Positions 50,692-62,065 of a stretch of DNA of 64,000 nt are shown here, one piece after another. Source of the stretch: Heterostelium album PN500. Lineage: Eukaryota > Evosea > Eumycetozoa > Acytosteliales > Acytosteliaceae. A model generated the notes under the pieces. It was not told the DNA's origin. It worked only from the letters and a program-made list of their open reading frames with translations, and did no database searches. The stretch's first letter is position 1, and each line of letters begins with the position of its first letter. Location of the stretch: positions 1,364,001 through 1,428,000 of the forward strand of contig NW_008805065.1 of assembly GCF_000004825.1 (NCBI RefSeq). Reading direction: 5' to 3'. The position numbers and the translations under genes are program-made.

Positions 50692-53600
50692 TTATGGTTG
50701 ATAAATACCGGCGTCAGCCATCAGTTCTACAGAACCAATTGGACCAGTAGTGTATACGTAATTACCGTTGGCGTCTGGCTTACTGTTCATGTTATACGGG
50801 TTTTGTGGTTGTACGGACTTAGCGTTGGGTGCAGTGAATACCCATCCAGCTGGTATTGGGCCAAACCTGATGGTATAGGTGGTGTTTGGATCGACCTTGA
50901 ATGAGTAGTAACCAAGGCTGTTGGTTGTTGTTGTAGCTATTTGTTGTCCATCCTTTAGTAGAGTAATTGGGATATCGGGTACACCGACTTCATTGTTGCT
51001 TTGAAGTCCGTTCTTGTCGGCATCGTTCCATACGTAGTTACCGATGTATGATGGTGGATTAAGACAGTTGAGATCCATATCACCGAGGGCATTCAATTTA
51101 CCGAATTGATTCATTTGTGGAATGTTCTTAATGATACGGAACGATGAGTTCTTGGTACCGTTTGTTGTACTGTAATGGTGAACGACACCTTCGTTGACAT
51201 CATAGAGATCGTATGCATTACCAACAACTTCGTTGGTACCTGCAAGATGTGCCATATGACCCCAACCGGTTTCATCATGTGCCCAGGCAGAGTTGGCAAA
51301 GTTGTCGTCAAAGAACTCACCGAAACCTGGACCTTCAGCTGTGGATTGAATACCACTTGGACCGGTGTGAGCACCGTTCATACCACCACAGTTACCTTGT
51401 TTCTCGAGAATGTATTTACCTTGGTCATTCTTACAGGCGTACAATTGGTCACCACCTGGAATAGTTGAGAACTCTGCATTTCTGTCCTTGAGACCGATTA
51501 CCATGTTACCTTGGTATCCAATGAATACAATGTCAGAGACGATTGGATTTGGTGTGTATTGAATGACGTTGGCAGAGTATCTGCTCCATGTCTTCCAGAG
51601 TGCCGATCTACAGCTTGCAGTTGGTCTACCGTTGAACAATCTACATTGGACAGCACCTCTTGGGTATACCAACGATGCCTCCAAAGTGGATGTGAATGAT
51701 CCGTCGTCTTCAATCTTGTAGATGTACATCCAGAGATCGTCCAAGACACCTGAATCTTGACCGGTACAAACACCACCGACGTGCATGTTTCTACCGTCGT
51801 AACCAAGACCTTGAATAGCCCAATCGCCTTGGACATCACATGGATTGGGTGGTGTCAAAATTTTAACATTGGCATTGGTGGGTGTCTGTCTCAATGGAAT
51901 CTGTAAGACGGTTCTCTGATTCAATACTGTGGCGTAGAGATAATCACCAGCAATATCGATATCACCAAACATGAGACGATACTCGCTGTTTGGTTCCATT
52001 GGATAACCAACAAGATTGTAACTTGATGCTACCACTTGGTTGACATTGATATATGGAGTAGTTGCTCCGGTGGCTGGATCTACTCTGTAGATAGCACCAC
52101 TATCTCTCGTTTTGGTTCCAATCTTGTAAAAGGTTGCCAAGAACCATGCACCAGTTGCACGATCAAAGGCTACACCACTGACAGTATTGATGGTTGGATA
52201 CATAACAACCTGGTCAACGTTGGCGTTAAAGTCACCGGAAGTGTTGGTCTTGGCATTGTATGGGAATGTAATAAAGACTGGTTCGCTTGCCAATTTACCG
52301 GGTGAAACGGGTGGATCCTTAACGAAACAGGTAATACCGATCTTGACATCGTCTTGACAGTATTCGAATGGAATGATAAAACCGGCGTTGACATCGGTTC
52401 TAGAGGCAGTTGGGAATTGTAGGAGTGAACCTTCAGACTTTGCTTCAAGAATGGTTGGTTGATACGGACTTGGGTAGTTGTAGAAAATGACTTGGTATTG
52501 TTTGCCTTCAGTGAGATTTCCAAAGAAGTAGGCACCTTGATCGTCAGTTTGTACTGTACGAAGTACAGTGTCGCCATCGTACAAAGCAACTGTGATGTTC
52601 GGGAAGACAGTATCGAGACCATTGAGGAGACCGTCTGCATTGTAATCGTGGAATGAAATACCAGAGATGAAACCGGTTGGTGCGTTCTCCACGTAACCGG
52701 CATCAATGGTATTATCCACAGCGAGATATCGATCACGAGTTAATAAATTTGGATTGACGGTCATTAGTGGATCGTTGATATCGAGGGTAATGACATCAGT
52801 GTTACCAGTGGCAGGATTGACATTGGAATCAATGGTTCTATCGGTTCCAACATTTTGTGTAGTGAAAGTGAATCCACTTGGTAATGAAAAGTTGACAATG
52901 TAGCTTCCTGGTAACAAACCAGTGAAAATATATCTTCCATTTGTATCTGTGACGGTGCTTTGAACTGGTGCACCTGTCATATCTTTAGCGGGTTGCATTG
53001 TGCCATCAAATAATCTTACTTCAATGCCACTCTTGGGTACATATGGAATCTGAACACCCATCAAACCACCTGGTGCGTCCAAGAAGGTGAAGTCACCAAT
53101 GGCTAGTACCAATGGTGATACTATGGCATCGATATCGGTTCTCATGAAGTTAGCATTGATTCCAGGATAGGCAGCTGTGTTGACAGCTGGACTGTTTGTG
53201 GTGTCAAGTGAGAATGGAATTGAGAAGGTTCTCAATCTCATGTTGGCAAGAGAGGCAGTACGGTAGGTTTCATAGATGAATTGACTTCCGAGGTTACTGA
53301 AAGTAACGACATAGTTGTCACCAGCTGGTAGATTATCAAAGTAGTAATAGCCAGTAGCATTGGTTGTTTTCGGTTGAACTGGGTTACCAAGTACATCGAA
53401 TGCGGGGAGACCGTCTTCGGTAAGAGTGACAGTGATACCCTCTCCTTGATAGGTGATAGCGGTGACACCATGATTGTTATAGACAACTTGATCACCAACT
53501 GCGAATCTATTAGTTGGAACGACACCACGATTTTGATCTCGGAGAATCTTTTGAGCATTGGTAATACCATGGTCAATGGAAGGATCAACGTTGGCGAGTT

Positions 53601-56600
53601 GGGCATTCTCACCGATATTAACGTTGTTGATGACTGATTGAGTTGGGGTGACAGGTGATGGTTGGAAGTAGACGTATCCAGCTGGTACACCATTAAAGTT
53701 GAGTGTGTAAGTACCATATGGTAGATCATCGAATGAATAGTAACCACTGCCATCGGTAATAGCCGGTTGAATTACAATACCGTTTGATCCGACAACAGTA
53801 TTGTTATTGGCATCAGTCAGCATCACATTGACGTTGGCAACAGGTTGTTCACCAGCGTCTTTAGCACCGTTCTTATTGTTATCATAGTAGACGAAACCAG
53901 ATACAGCATTGATTGTGGTGTTGAGTGGTGGATTGACAAGACCGGCATCGATGGTTCTGAGGATATAGGTGGCATTGACAACACCCTTGTCGATATTTTG
54001 ATTGACGATGGAGATTGCTGGATTGGTATTGGTGAGATTGAAAGAGTTGGAGTAACCTTGTTGATTGGCAACATTATTTCCTCCGAGTGGACCGAAACTA
54101 TAGTTGGCTGGAATGTTTTTGAATACGACAATGTAGGAACCTGGTAAGATGTTGTCGATCCAGTAATTACCGTTTTGATCAGTGACAGCAACAGCTGGTT
54201 GTCCTAGCATATTGTTATTTGGTTGACCGAGTACGGTTGTGAGGAAATGGAGTTCGACGGTTACACCTGGTACTGGAAGTTCTCCTTGATCTTGCATACC
54301 GTTTCTGTTGGTGTCGTACCATACGTAGTCACCGACAGCGTACAATGGTGGAGTGAGATAACCTGCATCTTCAGTATCGTCAATCATTGTTGCATTGAGG
54401 GTGGGTGGATCACCGAGACCTGCATTAATGGCACGTGCACGACCAGCATATGGAGCTAAAAGAATATTGCTAATCAATCCATTTCTTACTTTATTATCGT
54501 TGGATCCGTTACCTGCTTCGAACAGTGTCTCACGAAGTACAGTAATTGGTGAGGAAATCATGATATCATAGACACCAGGACGAACTGCATCGATGTAATA
54601 GTAACCAGTGAGGTTGCTTATGGTTTGGTCGTAGAAGTTGCTACTAGCGTCGAGGAGGACAACCGTGGCACCGGATACTGGTGGTTCTCCTGGGTCTTGG
54701 AGACCGTTGGAGTTGATATCGTACCAGATGTAGTTACCTACTGCCATTTGTACCAATGGGATGAGAGCAGCGTTTTCAGTGTCGTCGATGAATGGAGCTT
54801 TGACACCGTCGGCTGGAACAGATGCACGAATTTGTGGAGCTGTTGATGAAAGTGTGAATGGCTGGGTGACACCAGAGGAAGAGTCAGCAGCAGTCTTGTT
54901 ACCAATCATAAGATTCATTGGAATGTTAGAGAATGAAATTTGGTAGGTTCCAGGTGGAATGTTGTCAATGTAGTAGAGACCGTTGGCATCGGTGTAGACA
55001 GCGTTGATTGGGTTACCATTGACATCTGGAGCAGTTCCTCCACCTGGGTAGGAGAGTTCAACTCTGACATTTGGTACTGGTAGATCGCCACCACCATTTC
55101 CGTTGTAGACACCATCGTCGTTACGATCGAACCATACGAGGTGACCAACAGCAAACGAGGAAGTTGGTACTGTGTTGGCTACATAACCGGCATCTATCGT
55201 TGGAAGATAGAGTACAGCTTGCATTCCTGGTACATTTGGTTGGATAAGGTTTGGAGTATTTGGATTAAGACTGATAAGAGTTGTTAGACCGTTGATGGTT
55301 GCTACTGAATTGAGACCGGCTTGACCATTGAATGGAATGGTGAAACGGAATCCAGTGATGTTTCCAAATTGGACATAGTATTGTCCTGGAGGGATTTGAT
55401 CGAAATAGTAGTGACCGTTATTGTCTGTTATGACATCCTTTACAATCTGACCAAATGAACTCAAAACTGGTTGGAATTGTGGGTTAACCAATTTAACTGT
55501 GACACCTGATGCTGGTTGTTCGCCTGGGTCTTGGATACCGTTGGAGTTGGCATCGTACCAAGTGTAGTCACCGATGGCATAGGATCTTGGTGGTTCTAAC
55601 TCTTGATCGATTGTTGGGTCAAAGAAGATTGAGAGAGGAGCATTATCATTTGGGGTAGTTGGACGAATGGTTGGAGTGTCTCTTGCTAGTCTGAAACGTC
55701 TCTCACCGTTCTCTGGATCCTTGTAGGTGAATCCAGGTGGAATGTTGATCCAACGCACCAAGTAGTCACCTCTTTGGAGATTCTCAAAGTTGTAGAAACC
55801 ACGTGCATTTGTTGTGGTTGGTTGAAGTGGACGACCAGAAATATCGATGACTGGACTTCCGTTGAGGTTAGTAAGCATAACAGTTACATTGGGTACACCA
55901 ATTTGTTGACCTTGATCGTTCGTATAGAATACAAAGTCACCGAAACCAAGAGGAGTGGCTTGTCTGAGACCACCGTTTTGTTCACGATCGATACGGGTTG
56001 CGACAAGACCTGGTGGATCTTGACCGTCGTAGGTTGGGGTGTTTTCATCGAGTGAAAAGATTGGAGTGGTACGAGTTGTTGGATCTGGTCTGGTTTTGTC
56101 TTCAAATACATAACCTAGTGGAAGGTTTTGGAAGGTAACGATGTAACGACCTGGTGGAAGGTTATCAAATACATAGTAACCATTTTGGTCAGTGACTGCG
56201 TTAGGTACGGAGTTACCATTGACATCGAGTGCTGGAAATCCATTGAAATTGAGTAGTCTGGCGACGACACCTGGTGCTCCAAGTTCATTGGGTTCACGAG
56301 TTGCAGATTCATCTGGGTCGAACCATACATAACGACCGACTGCATAGATCTCACTTTGAACTTTACCTTGAATGATACCAGCATCTTGGAAGGGATTGAT
56401 GTATTTATCTGGTGATTTATCCAATGGTGAGACAAGTCTGACTTCAGGATTGATTGTTGCCAGTGCAAAGAAGTTGGTAGAGTTGGATGTCGGAATGACA
56501 CGAGAGTCGACTTCATTGAGTTGTCCGGCGGCTGCAAATGGTTTAGTCCATGAGTAGCCATCTGGCAGATTGCTGAATTCAATTCTGTAGAGCCCAGGGT

Positions 56601-59600
56601 ATAGACCTGTGAATAGATAGTATCCATTGGAATCGGTAACTTGGTCTTTGACTGGTTGTCCGTTTATGTCAATCGGAGATGTTCTGTTGACACCATAGAT
56701 TTTAGCGACAACACCAGCTACACCTGGTTCTCCTGCATCAATCAAACCATTGTTGTTCTGGTCATACCAAATGAAATCACCAACTGAATAGGAGTCGGTA
56801 GTGATAAAACCTGCATTGGCATCAAAGAAACCTTGTTGAGAGATAAGAGTTCTACCGAGATTGGATGGTGTAGGACTGGCGAGAGCTGGGAATCTCATTT
56901 CAGGAGTTGTTCCAGTGATTTGGTTGGCTAGTGATGCTTCTGGTTGGAATCCAAGTGTTTGGACAGTACGATTGAGTACAATACCTTGTGCCAAGGTGAT
57001 AGATATGATGTAACCGCCTGGTGGCAAGAGATCATAGAAGTAAAGACCGTTGAGATCGGTTATTTGTGATTGGACAATACGACCAAAGATATCTCTGATA
57101 GCGTTACCGTCTGACGACCAGAGAATAGCACTGGCACCTGGAATTCTTGGTTCATCTGGCTGTGCAAAACCATCTTGGTTGGCATCGATCCATGCCAATC
57201 TACCGAGTGCATACGATGGACGGTACAATGGTAGATCATAATCTGGATTAATCATATCGGCTTTGATTGTTGGGAATTTATTCTTATCGACTGGAATCAT
57301 TCCAGGATCGGAATCATTGATTTCATAGACTGGTGTGAATTTGTTGACCAACTTCAAGTCAATGGTGACATTGAATCCATCTGGGTAACCGAAATGAATG
57401 GAATAGTCACCCGATGGAATCAAATCAAAGATATAATGACCATTGGCATCAGTGATGACTGGTGGGAATCTATTACCTTGAGAGTCGACAGCTGGATTAC
57501 CATTGGAATCGAATAGAGAAATTGGAACATTTGGAATACCGACTTCACCGCGATCTTGAATACCGTTTTGATTTTGATCGTACCAGACAGTATCACCAAT
57601 GGCATAAGTTAACTTACTAGTGCTAACGAGAGGGAAGTTGAAATTTGGATTGGAATAGGTTCCGTTAAGAGTAGAGATAATTGCATTGTTTGGAACGAAC
57701 CCATTCTGTCCTGGACCAACAATGAATGGATAGGTATAATCAGTACTAGGTTGGATTGTGGCAATTCCAGTGGAATTTCCATGTGATAGTTGTGGTGGGA
57801 TAGTTGAGAGTCTGACACAGTATTCTCCTGCTGGGAATCCGTTGAAAGAATAGAAACCATTGGCGTCTGTAATAGTCGGTGGAATTGGGGTTCCATTCGC
57901 GTGGGTGGCGGGAGTTTCACAATCTTTTTGAGTGAGCGAAACAGTTACACCTGGAACTGGAGGGTCATTTTCGTTTGGCAAACCATCGTTGTTCTTGTCT
58001 TCGAATATGAAATAACCGAGTGAGAAAGTGTCTGGTGGAGTTTGCTTTGGAATCAATGGGAAGTTGATATCTGGATTGATCGTGGTGCTATTGACTGGGT
58101 GGATACCGTTGTTCTCAACGAAACCTGGAAATTCTGGACCGACTTGGAATGGACCGGTAGTATTTTTAGATGGATCGATTGATGGTCCACCAGTGCTTGG
58201 TCCATGTGTCAAATTGGTTGGTGTGTTTGTAACACCAACACAATAGCTTGCTGTCGCAAGATTATCAAAGAAGTATTCTCCTTTCTGGTTGGTTACGACT
58301 GGCGCAACTAGTTTACCAAATGCATCGGTAGCAGGTGTTTTACAATCGTCGTTAAACAATGTGACGATGGAATCTTGAACTGGAGTGTCAATAGTTGGAT
58401 CGAATTTTCCATTTTTGTCATTGTCAACGTAGACAACATGACCGAACGATGTGGTTGGAACGGTTGGATCGGATCCAAGGATGACACCAACACGGAGGAC
58501 ACCGGCATCAACCAATATCTTACAATCACTAGTGTATTGAATACTGGCCTTTCCTTTTGGTCCTGTCAAATGGATGATTGGTGATGTTCCATTGGAATAA
58601 GCGAAACTCTCTGATGTTGGAGCCATACCGACGGTCTTGGTGTAGGAGTATCCAGTGAGAAGATTACTGTAGATGAGGTAGTAGTCACCGGTCTTTAGAT
58701 TCTCAAAGCAAACTGGTCCTTGGGAGTTGGTGAGTTTTTGTGCAACTTGATTTCCATTGACATCGATAACGTTTGAACCATCTTGGTTGAAAATGCTAAT
58801 GACAACATTGGATGGACCAACGTTTTCTCCTAATTCCGGTTGGTAAGCACCCTCCGGGCTGATAGTGTCATTCCAAAACATGACACAGAATCTAGCTACT
58901 GTTGTATAATCGGTACATGGTGGTGCAGTGGTGAAACCAGTGATGGAATGTGGACCAGTGATCGTTTGGAACATGGTGGATAGAGTCTGGTAACCAGTGA
59001 TGGAATGTGGACCGGTTGGTGGATTGGTATTAGTGTAGTAACCAGTGATAGAATGTGGACCAGTGACTGTGTATGGACCAGTTATAGTATGTTGACCTGT
59101 ACTCAAGGAGTTTTGTCCAATCAAAGAGTTTTGAGTGGTAATTGAATTTGGACCGAGTGAAGAATGAGTAGTTTGCAATCCGGAAGTTGTTAATGGATAG
59201 GCAGTTGTGATAGTATTTGGATTTGTTGGAATACATGTGTCAACTCCATTGAGTTTAAGACATTGATGGCCAATTGGACAATAGTATTGACCGCATCTGG
59301 TTGGTGGATTACCGGAAGTTGGATATACAGTTGGGTTGCCAGAGGTTGGACCAATTGGTACACATGTTGGAACTCCATTGATATTGACACAGGTGAATCC
59401 TACTTGACACATGGATCTACCGCATGGTGTTGGGGTACCTGATGTTGGGAAACCAGAGGTTGGACCAATCGGTACACAAGTTAGCACTCCATTGATGTTG
59501 GAACAAGTGAATCCAGCTGGACACATGTATCTACCACATGGTGTTGGGGTACCTGATGTTGGGAAACCAGATGTTGGAACACTGGATGTTGGACCGCCTG

Positions 59601-62065
59601 GTACACAGGTTAATACTCCATTCAAATTGGCACATGAGTATCCAATTGGACATTGATAGTTTCCACATTGTTGACCAGTGGTTGGAACACTTGTTGGAGT
59701 TCCAGAGGTTGGACCACCTGGTACACAAGTTAACACTCCGTTGAGGTTTGCACAACTAAATCCGCCTGGACACATGTATTGACCACATGGTGTTGGGGTG
59801 CCTGATGTTGGGAAACCAGAAGTTGGATTACCAGAGGTTGGACCGCCTGGTACACATGTTAACACTCCATTCAAATTGGCACATGAGAATCCAGATGGAC
59901 ATTGATAGTTTCCACATTGTTGACCAGTGGTTGGAACACTTGTTGGGGTACCAGAGGTTGGACCACCTGGTACACAAGTATCGACACCATTGAGTTTGAC
60001 GCAACTATATCCATGTGGACATTGGTGGTTTCCACATTGTTGACCGGTGGTTGGGGATGGACCAGTGGTTGGTCCACCAGAAGTTCCGAATGGAACACAA
60101 GATGGAACATCACCAATCAATGCACAATAGTAATTTGGTGGACAGAACATGTTTTCACCACATTGACATCCAGTTGATAATGTTGATGGTGCTACAGTTG
60201 TTGGGTTGTTTGAAGTTGGGTTATATGAAGTTGGGTTGTTTGAAGTTGGGTTGTTTGAAGTTGACCATGGTCTACATTGTCTAACAGTTTCATCGCACCA
60301 GTATCCCCATCCACATTGAGCATCGTTTTGACATGCACCGCCAGTGGTTGGGTTACCAGAGGTTGCGGTTTGACCGGTTGATTGACTAGATGATGACCAT
60401 GGCTTGCATTGACCAACGGATTCATCACACCATTTACCCCATCCACATTGAGCATCGTTTTGACACACACCACCAGTGGTTGGATTACCAGAGGTTGCGG
60501 TTTGACCTGTAGATTGGCTAGTGGATGACCATGGCTTGCATTGTCCACTGGATTGTTCACACCATTTACCCCATCCACAGTCGCTATCTTGTCTGCATCC
60601 ACCGGCTCCAGTGGTTGGACTGCCAGAGGTTGAAGTTTGGCCTGTTGATTGACTGGATGATGACCATGGTTTGCATTGCCAGCTGGATTGGTCACACCAG
60701 TATCCCCAACCACATTGAGCATCGTTTTTGCAATGACCAGTACCAGTAGTTGGTGATCCTGAAGAAGAGGAAGCGGAGGTAGCGGAAGTTGCAGAGGTAG
60801 CGGAAGTGGCCGATGTTTGACCACCGTTTTGATGACAATCCATATTGATATCAAGTGGAATGCGATAGACTTGACCATTTTCAATGAATGAAAGCCAAAC
60901 AGCAAATCCAAGATTTCCATTCTTTCCGTTGGCACCAATACCGATTTGCATTGGCATTTCATCCATTCCACCGACGAACGATATCTTTCTGCCTTGGTTG
61001 CAACCGGTACCTATCCAGTAGGAGTTTGATGGCAATGGAGTGTAGAATCTCCATGATCTGACATCGATTGGACCCTTTGGATAGTAAGCGTGGCTGTCCA
61101 ACTCCTTACGGATCTCTTCACCTGGAAGAGTGGCAGCAAACTCAATGTTGACAGCCCATGTGTGGCAACTGTTGGCACCATCCTCCAATGGGAAGAGATT
61201 ACCAGTCAACAAGAGATTTCCGTTAGCGAGAACACGGAGATTGGCGGCGTTATTAACGAAATTCCACATACGTTGGTTGTCGAGTGATTGGAGTTGCTCA
61301 CCAATGTAACAGGCGTGACCTCCGAAAGTTCCACCGAGCTCTGGATCGGCAATCGGTGCAACACAGGTGTATGATACATCACAGTAGAGGAGTGCGCTCG
61401 ATGGAACTTGATTCTTGTGAATACCGCGAGTCTGAAGTGGATAATCGTTCTTCACTGAGATGTCATTGTCAGAGCGAACCAACTCGAACTGGTCGAAAAG
61501 GACATTTCCTTCGGTGTCGGCACGTCTGCTGGCAATACGGATACCGTGGTATTGCTGACCGTCATTTGGGAATGGAACAAAGGCAGTAACCCATCTCAAG
61601 GGAAGCTCTCTGTTACCGGTGGCGGCAAACTCTGGCTCACTCTTGGAAACCAATTCCATCGATGGGCCAAGTGAAAGATCTGATTTTAAAAAACTTATAC
61701 TTATGGATGGATTTCTTGATTCTTCTCTATCAGGAGTTGTTTTGAAAGAAATACCATTAAACTAATAATAATAAAAATCGTAAGTTAAAAATTTTGTATT
61801 TTAATAAAATATATTATATTATATTTTTATAATTTACCTCTGATCTATCAAAAGATTGCTCTTGCATCATTGAAATACTTTGGAAACTTTTTCCACTAAA
61901 TATAATTGATTTCGAATTTGAAAATAGAGGACTACCATTATCAGATTTAAAGAGTTGGTTTGAAAGCTGAATGTTTTCGTGTGATACTACTAAATGATGT
62001 GCTAGCATCACTAAAATAGTGATGCCTATCCAATATAATTTCCAAAACCTATTTTGGATTGCCAT
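50692..62065 (-). CDS. Giant secreted colossin-type protein with SdrD-B-like repeats
   Basis: Exons 62065-61838 and 61761-50692, phase 0, encode 3765 residues. Residues 1-28 form a signal peptide. Residues about 100-400 form an unrecognised N-terminal domain. Next come four Cys modules (CKNDAQCGWGYWCDQ type), eight shorter Cys modules (CGxxxCPxGxxCxxLNGVxTC), and a Thr/Ser stretch with repeated GPHSITGYYT. Then about 16 SdrD-B-like domains follow (typical start YAVGDYVWYDTNRNGMQDQG, with VTDxNGxYxFDNLPPGxY). After a 430-residue domain with propeller-like strands comes a last SdrD-B domain. No membrane anchor or sorting signal ends the protein. Colossins are dictyostelid proteins with these Cna-B/SdrD-B folds; this is one by domain content, but the exact orthologue is not known. 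Confidence 0.93.
52400..58900 (-). repeat. Array of about 16 SdrD-B-like (Cna B) protein repeats
   Basis: Each unit is about 110-150 residues with a Ca-binding-like DxNxNGxxDxGE loop and a later TDxNGxYxFDxLPPGxY strand pair. Units have diverged: the first and some middle ones (for example LGFGDFVFY and FAVGDQVVY) lost the acidic loop. The units start with YAVGDY, YAIGDT, YSVGDF, YAVGRY, FAVGHL, MAVGNY and similar. A seventeenth copy sits apart at the C-terminus (about 50770-51040). This array makes up more than half of the protein. Confidence 0.9.
58920..59224 (-). repeat. Mucin-like Thr/Ser repeat with GPHSITGYYT units
   Basis: Within the colossin gene, a short stretch repeats GPHSITG(Y/F), GQHTITGPYTVTG and similar, all rich in Thr and Ser and suited for O-glycosylation. 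It links the Cys modules to the SdrD-B array. Confidence 0.85.
59226..60176 (-). repeat. Eight short Cys modules with nearly identical DNA
   Basis: Units of about 23 residues, CGxYxCPxGxxCxxLNGVLTCVP, separated by GGPTSGxPTSGxPTTGQQ linkers. Several units differ by few bases (for example around 59540 and 59780), so the array has spread recently by unequal exchange or gene conversion. Related small Cys-rich repeats occur in dictyostelid spore-coat and follistatin-like proteins. Confidence 0.85.
60264..60732 (-). repeat. Four tandem Cys modules of the CxxDxxCGWGxWC type
   Basis: Units CKNDAQCGWGYWCDQSSWQC, CRQDSDCGWGKWCEQ, CQNDAQCGWGKWCDE and CQNDAQCGWGYWCDE each end KPW or RPW, linked by SSSSQSTGQTATSGNPTTGG. 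Each has four Cys spaced C-x5-C-x5-C-x6-C. They are near-identical repeats inside the colossin gene and may act as binding modules for matrix or cellulose (inference). Confidence 0.85.

Follow-up and report, generated by a model that had tools for sequence, protein, structure and literature searches.

Giant proteins built of short repeats raise the question of where they came from, and of which part of them could tell. Colossin A (colA) of Dictyostelium is seemingly a structural protein of the slug made of bacterial Cna_B repeats. The first-pass annotation of the locus described here gave colossin, for its Cna-B domains, as a listed candidate for horizontal transfer in Dictyostelium, and so it is in the passages of PMC3188802 that treat it, which credit the first D. 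discoideum genome paper with the listing. Transfer of the colossin repeat is thus already in print. The origin of a repeat so short is hard to read from its sequence. The present gene offers a traceable marker, a 440-residue head together with a partner domain of position-specific class. The gene lies in a stretch of 64,000 nucleotides from Heterostelium album PN500, analysed whole and called the window throughout; the 'window' protein and its 'window' domains are the products of this one gene. Its features are as follows.

50692..62065, minus strand: whole gene; predicted splicing gives a giant colossin-type protein of 3765 aa
61838..62065, minus strand: exon 1, 76 aa, opening with a hydrophobic, signal-peptide-like stretch at about aa 8-29
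61762..61837, minus strand: predicted intron, GT..AG, A+T-rich
50692..61761, minus strand: exon 2, an open stretch of 3689 aa
60826..61371, minus strand: N-terminal domain (N-domain), aa 207-388, without a Pfam family; its relatives lie within giant proteins of the Saprospiraceae family
60265..60732, minus strand: Cys modules of type A, four copies
59227..60168, minus strand: Cys modules of type B, seven regular copies and one irregular
58828..59226, minus strand: Thr/Pro/Gly-rich linker, limits approximate
52459..58827, minus strand: stalk of 16 SdrD_B domains, beginning with a weak one and closing with the pre-propeller U domain
52459..52668, minus strand: pre-propeller SdrD_B of the U class, the propeller's partner in bacteria
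51043..52365, minus strand: predicted beta-propeller head, aa 3209-3649, without a Pfam or NCBIfam family
50836..51045, minus strand: post-propeller SdrD_B (D), the last domain, with no hydrophobic tail behind it

Most of what the first-pass annotation had seen in the protein itself held. It placed 3765 residues in one frame; the length is right after splicing, but the frame is interrupted by the predicted intron. Its 17 SdrD-B-like domains are recovered by Pfam, whose SdrD_B model matches exon 2 in 17 places (E 9.8e-239), and by a purpose-built profile that finds 16 before the propeller region and one after it. The GDMDLNC that it noted in the C-terminal region starts at 51084 (and GNYVWND at 51042), and its two families of Cys modules are both there: type A, C-x5-C-x5-C-x6-C with GWG, in four copies at 60732-60265, and type B, CGxxxC..G..C....NGV.TC, in seven regular copies at 60036-59227 plus an irregular copy from 60168. 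The Pfam scan gives the N-terminal part no family of its own and one Prokineticin match at E 0.2; neither Pfam nor NCBIfam names a family for the C-terminal region 51043-52365; and the NCBIfam models of SdrC and SdrD match the protein far under their cut-offs, with two other models matching weakly over SdrD_B parts. Eleven calcium-loop-like motifs, one of them poor, lie in the SdrD_B part. The most hydrophobic 19-residue stretch of the protein is N-terminal, starting at aa 10, and hydrophobicity along the whole protein reveals no hydrophobic tail at the C-terminus, which reads ..ADAGIYQP. To judge from these features of the sequence, the protein is probably secreted. Base composition varies along the window, the five 2-kb bins of 52001-62000 having 43-45% G+C and the other bins 26-39%, with one at 40%.

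The Pfam domains of its neighbours place the gene in a eukaryotic chromosome: seven of the nine neighbouring ORFs scanned have Pfam matches, including ribosomal S8e, CRAL/TRIO, RhoGEF, KH, ankyrin and NUFIP1. Contamination of the assembly was considered and rejected on account of these neighbours, the predicted intron and the presence of eight propeller copies on five contigs. The genome to which the window belongs (32.9 Mb, 39 contigs) has at least 108 SdrD_B matches at E<=0.001, and eight places matching the propeller region, here taken to be genes: one each on contigs C4 and C14 and two each on C30, C11 and C12. Introns or stops interrupt some of them. The more distant of these copies are 29-34% identical among themselves, similar to the 28-33% between each amoeba copy and its top bacterial match. 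Two copies on one contig, L013 (C12:584858-586114) and L015 (C12:731677-732935), are about 90% alike; the former has an in-frame TAA within the propeller and the latter a frame change, as a broken copy or an intron would give. A third large amoeba frame (G000 C9:359775-364262, 1790 residues) has many SdrD_B matches, with no propeller match among the matches listed, and a stretch at C15:215228-216139, within a frame of 451 residues, shares 56-63% identity with the Cys modules of type A.

What is the head? The first-pass annotation called the C-terminal region 'propeller-like', and structure prediction agrees. AlphaFold2, given the window's three-domain block and 37 bacterial rows as input, models the block with a mean pLDDT of 79.4 and a pTM of 0.84, and region 51043-52365 is predicted to be a beta-propeller, which we read from its strand pattern as having about six blades. 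When the model is compared with solved structures by Foldseek, the first 50 matches are largely beta-propeller proteins, headed by the designed SAKe6 propellers (best E 7.2e-9); others are nidogen (1npe, TM-score 0.70 by target length), Kelch proteins, Bacteroides surface proteins and the A and B domains of SdrD. These matches speak at the level of general fold, TM-scores being low on a query of 670 aa.

Sequence relatives were sought in the amoeba's own genome, in bacterial and archaeal genomes, and in plasmid, phage and viral records, and bacterial relatives, as the first-pass annotation anticipated, were found. A four-row alignment, run against the species genomes of bacteria and archaea, yielded 289 propeller relatives, each required to match one of two short patterns, the top one at E 3e-45 (tblastn, residues 2-414); the best 80 of these genome-contig relatives, ranked by similarity to an amoeba copy, were kept. 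Once clustered, the rows represent eight phyla—Bacteroidota, Chloroflexota, Actinomycetota, Acidobacteriota, Planctomycetota, Myxococcota, Campylobacterota and Pseudomonadota. Whole-genome profile searches, whose loci are the best matches only, found the propeller in 120 of the 248 genomes sampled from the family of the Saprospiraceae genome L021 (E<=1e-30), with a profile, A1, that contains three bacterial rows. An amoeba-only profile at E<=1e-40 found it in 15 of 297 genomes in the phylum of the Acidobacteriota centre and in 12 of 301 in that of the Chloroflexota centre. Around the Pseudomonadota centre, two of 398 genomes of the phylum matched at E<=1e-4, namely the centre itself and a partial match at E 7e-5. 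The bacterial link that the first-pass annotation wrote as GLGD(L/M)E..C exists, with the consensus FGKANGLGDLExLC over 38 rows, 37 of them bacterial. On this sequence evidence we regard the homology of the window propeller to the bacterial propeller as firm. Among the bacterial frames, one (G009:C125) runs open for 7272 residues with a propeller, and an Acidimicrobiia MAG has two adjacent propeller frames (L043, 3136-6747 and 6967-10995) that are sister rows in the tree.

The window region alone, used in tblastn against plasmid records, matched 16: five are Streptantibioticus and Streptomyces megaplasmids (E 2e-17 and 7e-14), one encodes a protein of Spirosoma that bears the annotation 'SdrD B-like domain-containing protein' (E 4e-4), and the remaining ten are at chance level (E 3 to 10). 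Phage records gave no match to the window propeller region. Carriage by phage was considered and rejected. In the viral collection one of 35 pattern matches is a relative; that one, the IMG/VR contig L101, has a propeller frame of Streptomyces-like form by its architecture.

In bacteria the propeller seldom stands alone. Among 136 distinct full-length non-amoeba propellers—reduced from 164 stretches at 95% identity, with L101 of the viral collection and the plasmid loci L018-L020 counted along with those of genomes—132 have SdrD_B on both flanks, and the four exceptions want for the upstream SdrD_B only. An earlier count of 147 of 151, which like the class test below excluded 13 re-fetched loci, held some further duplicates (L140, L141, L142 and L147). 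Bacterial SdrD_B domains were sorted by position into upstream (U), downstream (D) and other, generic (I) domains, and a profile was made of each from 62 clustered rows; in five-fold cross-validation these placed 181 of 186 bacterial test domains correctly. The amoeba pre-propeller SdrD_B falls in class U in all six copies, or five independent ones since L013 and L015 are near-copies; that of the window scores 63.3 bits as U, 54.4 as generic and 39.1 as D. Elsewhere in the amoeba stalks, 24 of 25 SdrD_B domains are of the generic class, and on these scores the stalk is built of the generic bacterial-type repeat. Behind the propeller the scores are close, two of seven amoeba domains being best in D and five best as generic, with the window's own at 71.7 bits as D versus 71.6 as generic. 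The U class of the pre-propeller domains suggests that propeller and upstream SdrD_B were inherited together, and this joint inheritance is, from the sequence classes, well supported; constraint from contact with the propeller, shared by all such domains, could add to the U signal.

The arrangement of the block differs. The first-pass annotation had bacterial surface proteins ending with this region, and there the bacterial frames go the other way: exactly one SdrD_B precedes the first full propeller in 82 of the 85 frames with a visible start (77 of 80 with near-duplicates removed at 95%), and the propeller starts at a median of residue 191. Two of the three remaining frames have no SdrD_B ahead and one has three: the frame with three is L037, whose earlier propeller the profile splits in two, and one of the two with none is L062, a broken frame. 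The bacterial block is N-terminal, whereas that of the window lies at the C-terminal end, with 16 SdrD_B domains ahead of the propeller if U is counted: the order is inverted. Five bacterial frames (L021, L030, L037, L049 and L100) have two SdrD_B-propeller-SdrD_B blocks apiece, the first propeller of L037 being matched in two pieces.

The other end of the protein has bacterial relatives of its own. Used alone, the window N-domain weakly matches six of 150 Saprospiraceae-family genomes at E<=1e-3 (best E 1.7e-6), and the direct matches, eight in number, lie in frames that stay open for 1088 to 5948 residues; tblastn against plasmid records gave none. A four-row profile (the window, an amoeba paralogue and two bacterial rows, the last of which favour bacterial matches) finds the domain at E<=1e-8 in 42 of 248 genomes, the frames reaching 8209 residues. 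In the reverse direction, a bacteria-only profile of 15 rows matches the window frame at E 2.6e-12 with 44.5 bits, the best of 3000 shuffles reaching 7.5 bits, a control that is not fully independent as the 15 rows were gathered with profiles containing the window domain. It also matches the amoeba paralogue, L105, a separate frame that has an N-domain and one SdrD_B. From these matches the window N-domain is bacterial in kind. In L105, and among bacterial frames in L201, SdrD_B follows the N-domain directly. Some bacterial genomes have both an N-domain and a propeller (G001, G023, G043, G164 and G227, for example), and no single bacterial frame contains both among the propeller and N-domain loci examined, with their limited flanks. 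The longest of these frames, G128:C12 with its 8209 residues, has several N-domains, and two others, L192 and L193, also have repeats of SprB. SprB is a gliding adhesin. On a plasmid of Aureispira anguillae, a 'PKD domain-containing protein' (NZ_AP026868.1, 24099-24575) matches the bacterial N-domain of L193 at 35% and E 2e-16.

The Cys modules behave otherwise. The same kind of search returned two weak matches among 150 genomes of one family, both with internal stops and neither credible, and plasmid records gave no match; within those sets, the modules, called amoebozoan in the first-pass annotation, have no credible bacterial counterpart.

How does the window protein compare with systems already named? 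Staphylococcal SdrC and SdrD, of the MSCRAMM class, share the SdrD_B B-repeat with it: SdrD is among its PDB sequence matches, and the NCBIfam SdrD model matches ten of its stretches. The SdrD model nonetheless scores 410.9 against a cut-off of 2500, its best stretch covering model positions 570-1078 of 1379, and the SdrC model 375.7 against 1700. MSCRAMM Sdr adhesins end in a sorting signal with a hydrophobic tail, and the window protein has no such tail. Another comparison is with an unnamed bacterial family of SdrD_B-propeller-SdrD_B proteins, found in Saprospiraceae, Spirosomataceae, Chloroflexota, Acidobacteriota, Streptomyces and others, which shares with the window the three-domain block, the U-class flank and the FGK-NGLGD link; it differs in having the block N-terminal, with further repeats, if any, behind, and in giving no credible Cys-module match in the sets searched. 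The Dictyostelium colossins are large or giant dictyostelid proteins with Cna_B-type repeats, and the window protein has an array of Cna_B/SdrD_B-type repeats; PMC4334915 lists the colossin D family (OG5_138577) among those expanded in group 2 and gives P. pallidum 22 members. The relevant passages of PMC3188802 and PMC4334915 mention no propeller head or N-domain. Neither those passages nor literature searches turned up the head block, the U partner, the N-domain or the inverted order, and searches of the main text of PMC4931340 and PMC11589745 gave no colossin, Cna or SdrD. We call the head block undescribed solely because literature searches on colossins and SdrD_B in amoebae found none.

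From which bacteria, and in which direction, did the block move? Two propeller trees were built, one by careful search from 97 rows reduced to 49 at 65% identity, the other by quick search with 61 rows added at 55%, giving 83. L014 is partial, and L016, which overlaps L015, was not included. Both trees group the eight amoeba copies in a single clade (100/99 with 49 rows; SH-aLRT 97 with 83), and bacterial phyla are intermixed around them. The bacterial sister clade that the first-pass annotation looked to is partly there: with 49 rows the nearest to the amoebae are one Saprospiraceae and one Acidobacteriota row (89/84, not starred), but the 83-row tree does not resolve the donor lineage and the position of the root is uncertain. 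With midpoint rooting the amoeba clade lies within the bacteria; minimal ancestor deviation disagrees and puts the root of the unrooted tree on the amoeba stem, at 0.184 versus 0.193 for the next branch. The window row is among the long branches, and long amoeba branches may pull a root of this kind. A tree of U domains (74 columns, with D and I domains as an outgroup that does not itself fall on one side) groups five of six amoeba U domains, at two separate positions and not significantly, with the bacterial-U side, and joins the window's own U domain to two generic bacterial domains (98/98); with p 0.296, the AU test on this short tree cannot reject a single clade of bacterial U domains. The trees alone leave the direction unproven. 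Transfer from bacterium to amoeba is likely, mainly because of distribution.

The explanation that we consider probable, then, is that the head block of at least eight amoeba genes, common with bacterial surface-type proteins, came from bacteria and was rebuilt in the amoeba as part of a secreted fibre of the matrix or sheath. A bacterial transfer into the amoeba lineage would have been followed by gene duplication; the generic SdrD_B repeats would have multiplied, and Cys modules been added. The protein would be exported by its signal sequence and held in the matrix, or cross-linked by disulphides, through N-domain and Cys modules, with the 16 SdrD_B domains as a calcium-stiffened stalk and the C-terminal propeller as a binding head. 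Anchor at the N-terminus and head at the C-terminus would reverse the bacterial layout and keep its working principle. The matrix or sheath role is a reasoned guess from this architecture. The suggestion of the first-pass annotation, that the source was an entire bacterial surface protein, goes beyond the evidence: N-domain and propeller are together in no examined bacterial frame, and the order differs. A broader version is quite possible, and we offer it tentatively: dictyostelids would have gained most of a giant adhesin—N-domain, stalk and head—reversed its polarity, moved the anchor to the N-terminus by means of Cys modules, and then radiated the product as a matrix family of aggregative multicellularity. 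It is possible too, if somewhat doubtful, that stalk, U-propeller head and N-domain arrived by separate transfers and were joined in the amoeba, which differs from the explanation we favour only in the number of events. The missing combined frame and the inverted order both suit such piecemeal assembly, as do the generic look of the post-propeller domain in five of seven amoeba copies and the existence of L105 as a frame apart; L201, with its N-domain directly before SdrD_B, points the other way, and bacterial genomes that have both N-domain and propeller mean that one source could supply everything.

Explanations that dispense with a bacterial donor fare worse. Were the block inherited vertically from early eukaryotes, surviving in these amoebae while other lineages lost it, transfer would not be called for, and the minimal-ancestor-deviation root and the position of every amoeba copy on one side of one branch would be as expected; we think this unlikely, as the mixing of eight bacterial phyla suggests frequent transfer, the long-branched window row can pull that root, and most amoeba U domains go with the bacterial ones in the paralogue-rooted tree, if not significantly. 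The same unrooted tree and amoeba-stem root would also fit a head that arose in amoebae and spread to bacteria, which is very unlikely given copies in eight bacterial phyla and in nearly half the sampled genomes of one family, with a position-specific flanking domain near-constant among them. Chance or convergence among repetitive, beta-rich proteins, SdrD_B-like domains and propellers being common folds, we hold to be scarcely credible: tblastn similarity extends over most of the head at the E-values given above, the flanking domain is of a position-specific class, the N-domain far exceeds its shuffles, and the Cys modules, put through the same search, returned next to nothing.

On the explanation that we favour, bacteria are the probable source of much of the scaffold of this protein, which was rearranged and to which Cys modules of the amoeba's own were added. 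Head and partner domain together make its source testable by phylogeny. The finding suggests that the amoeba turned parts of bacterial adhesins into matrix proteins of its own, possibly in the course of the evolution of its multicellular stage.
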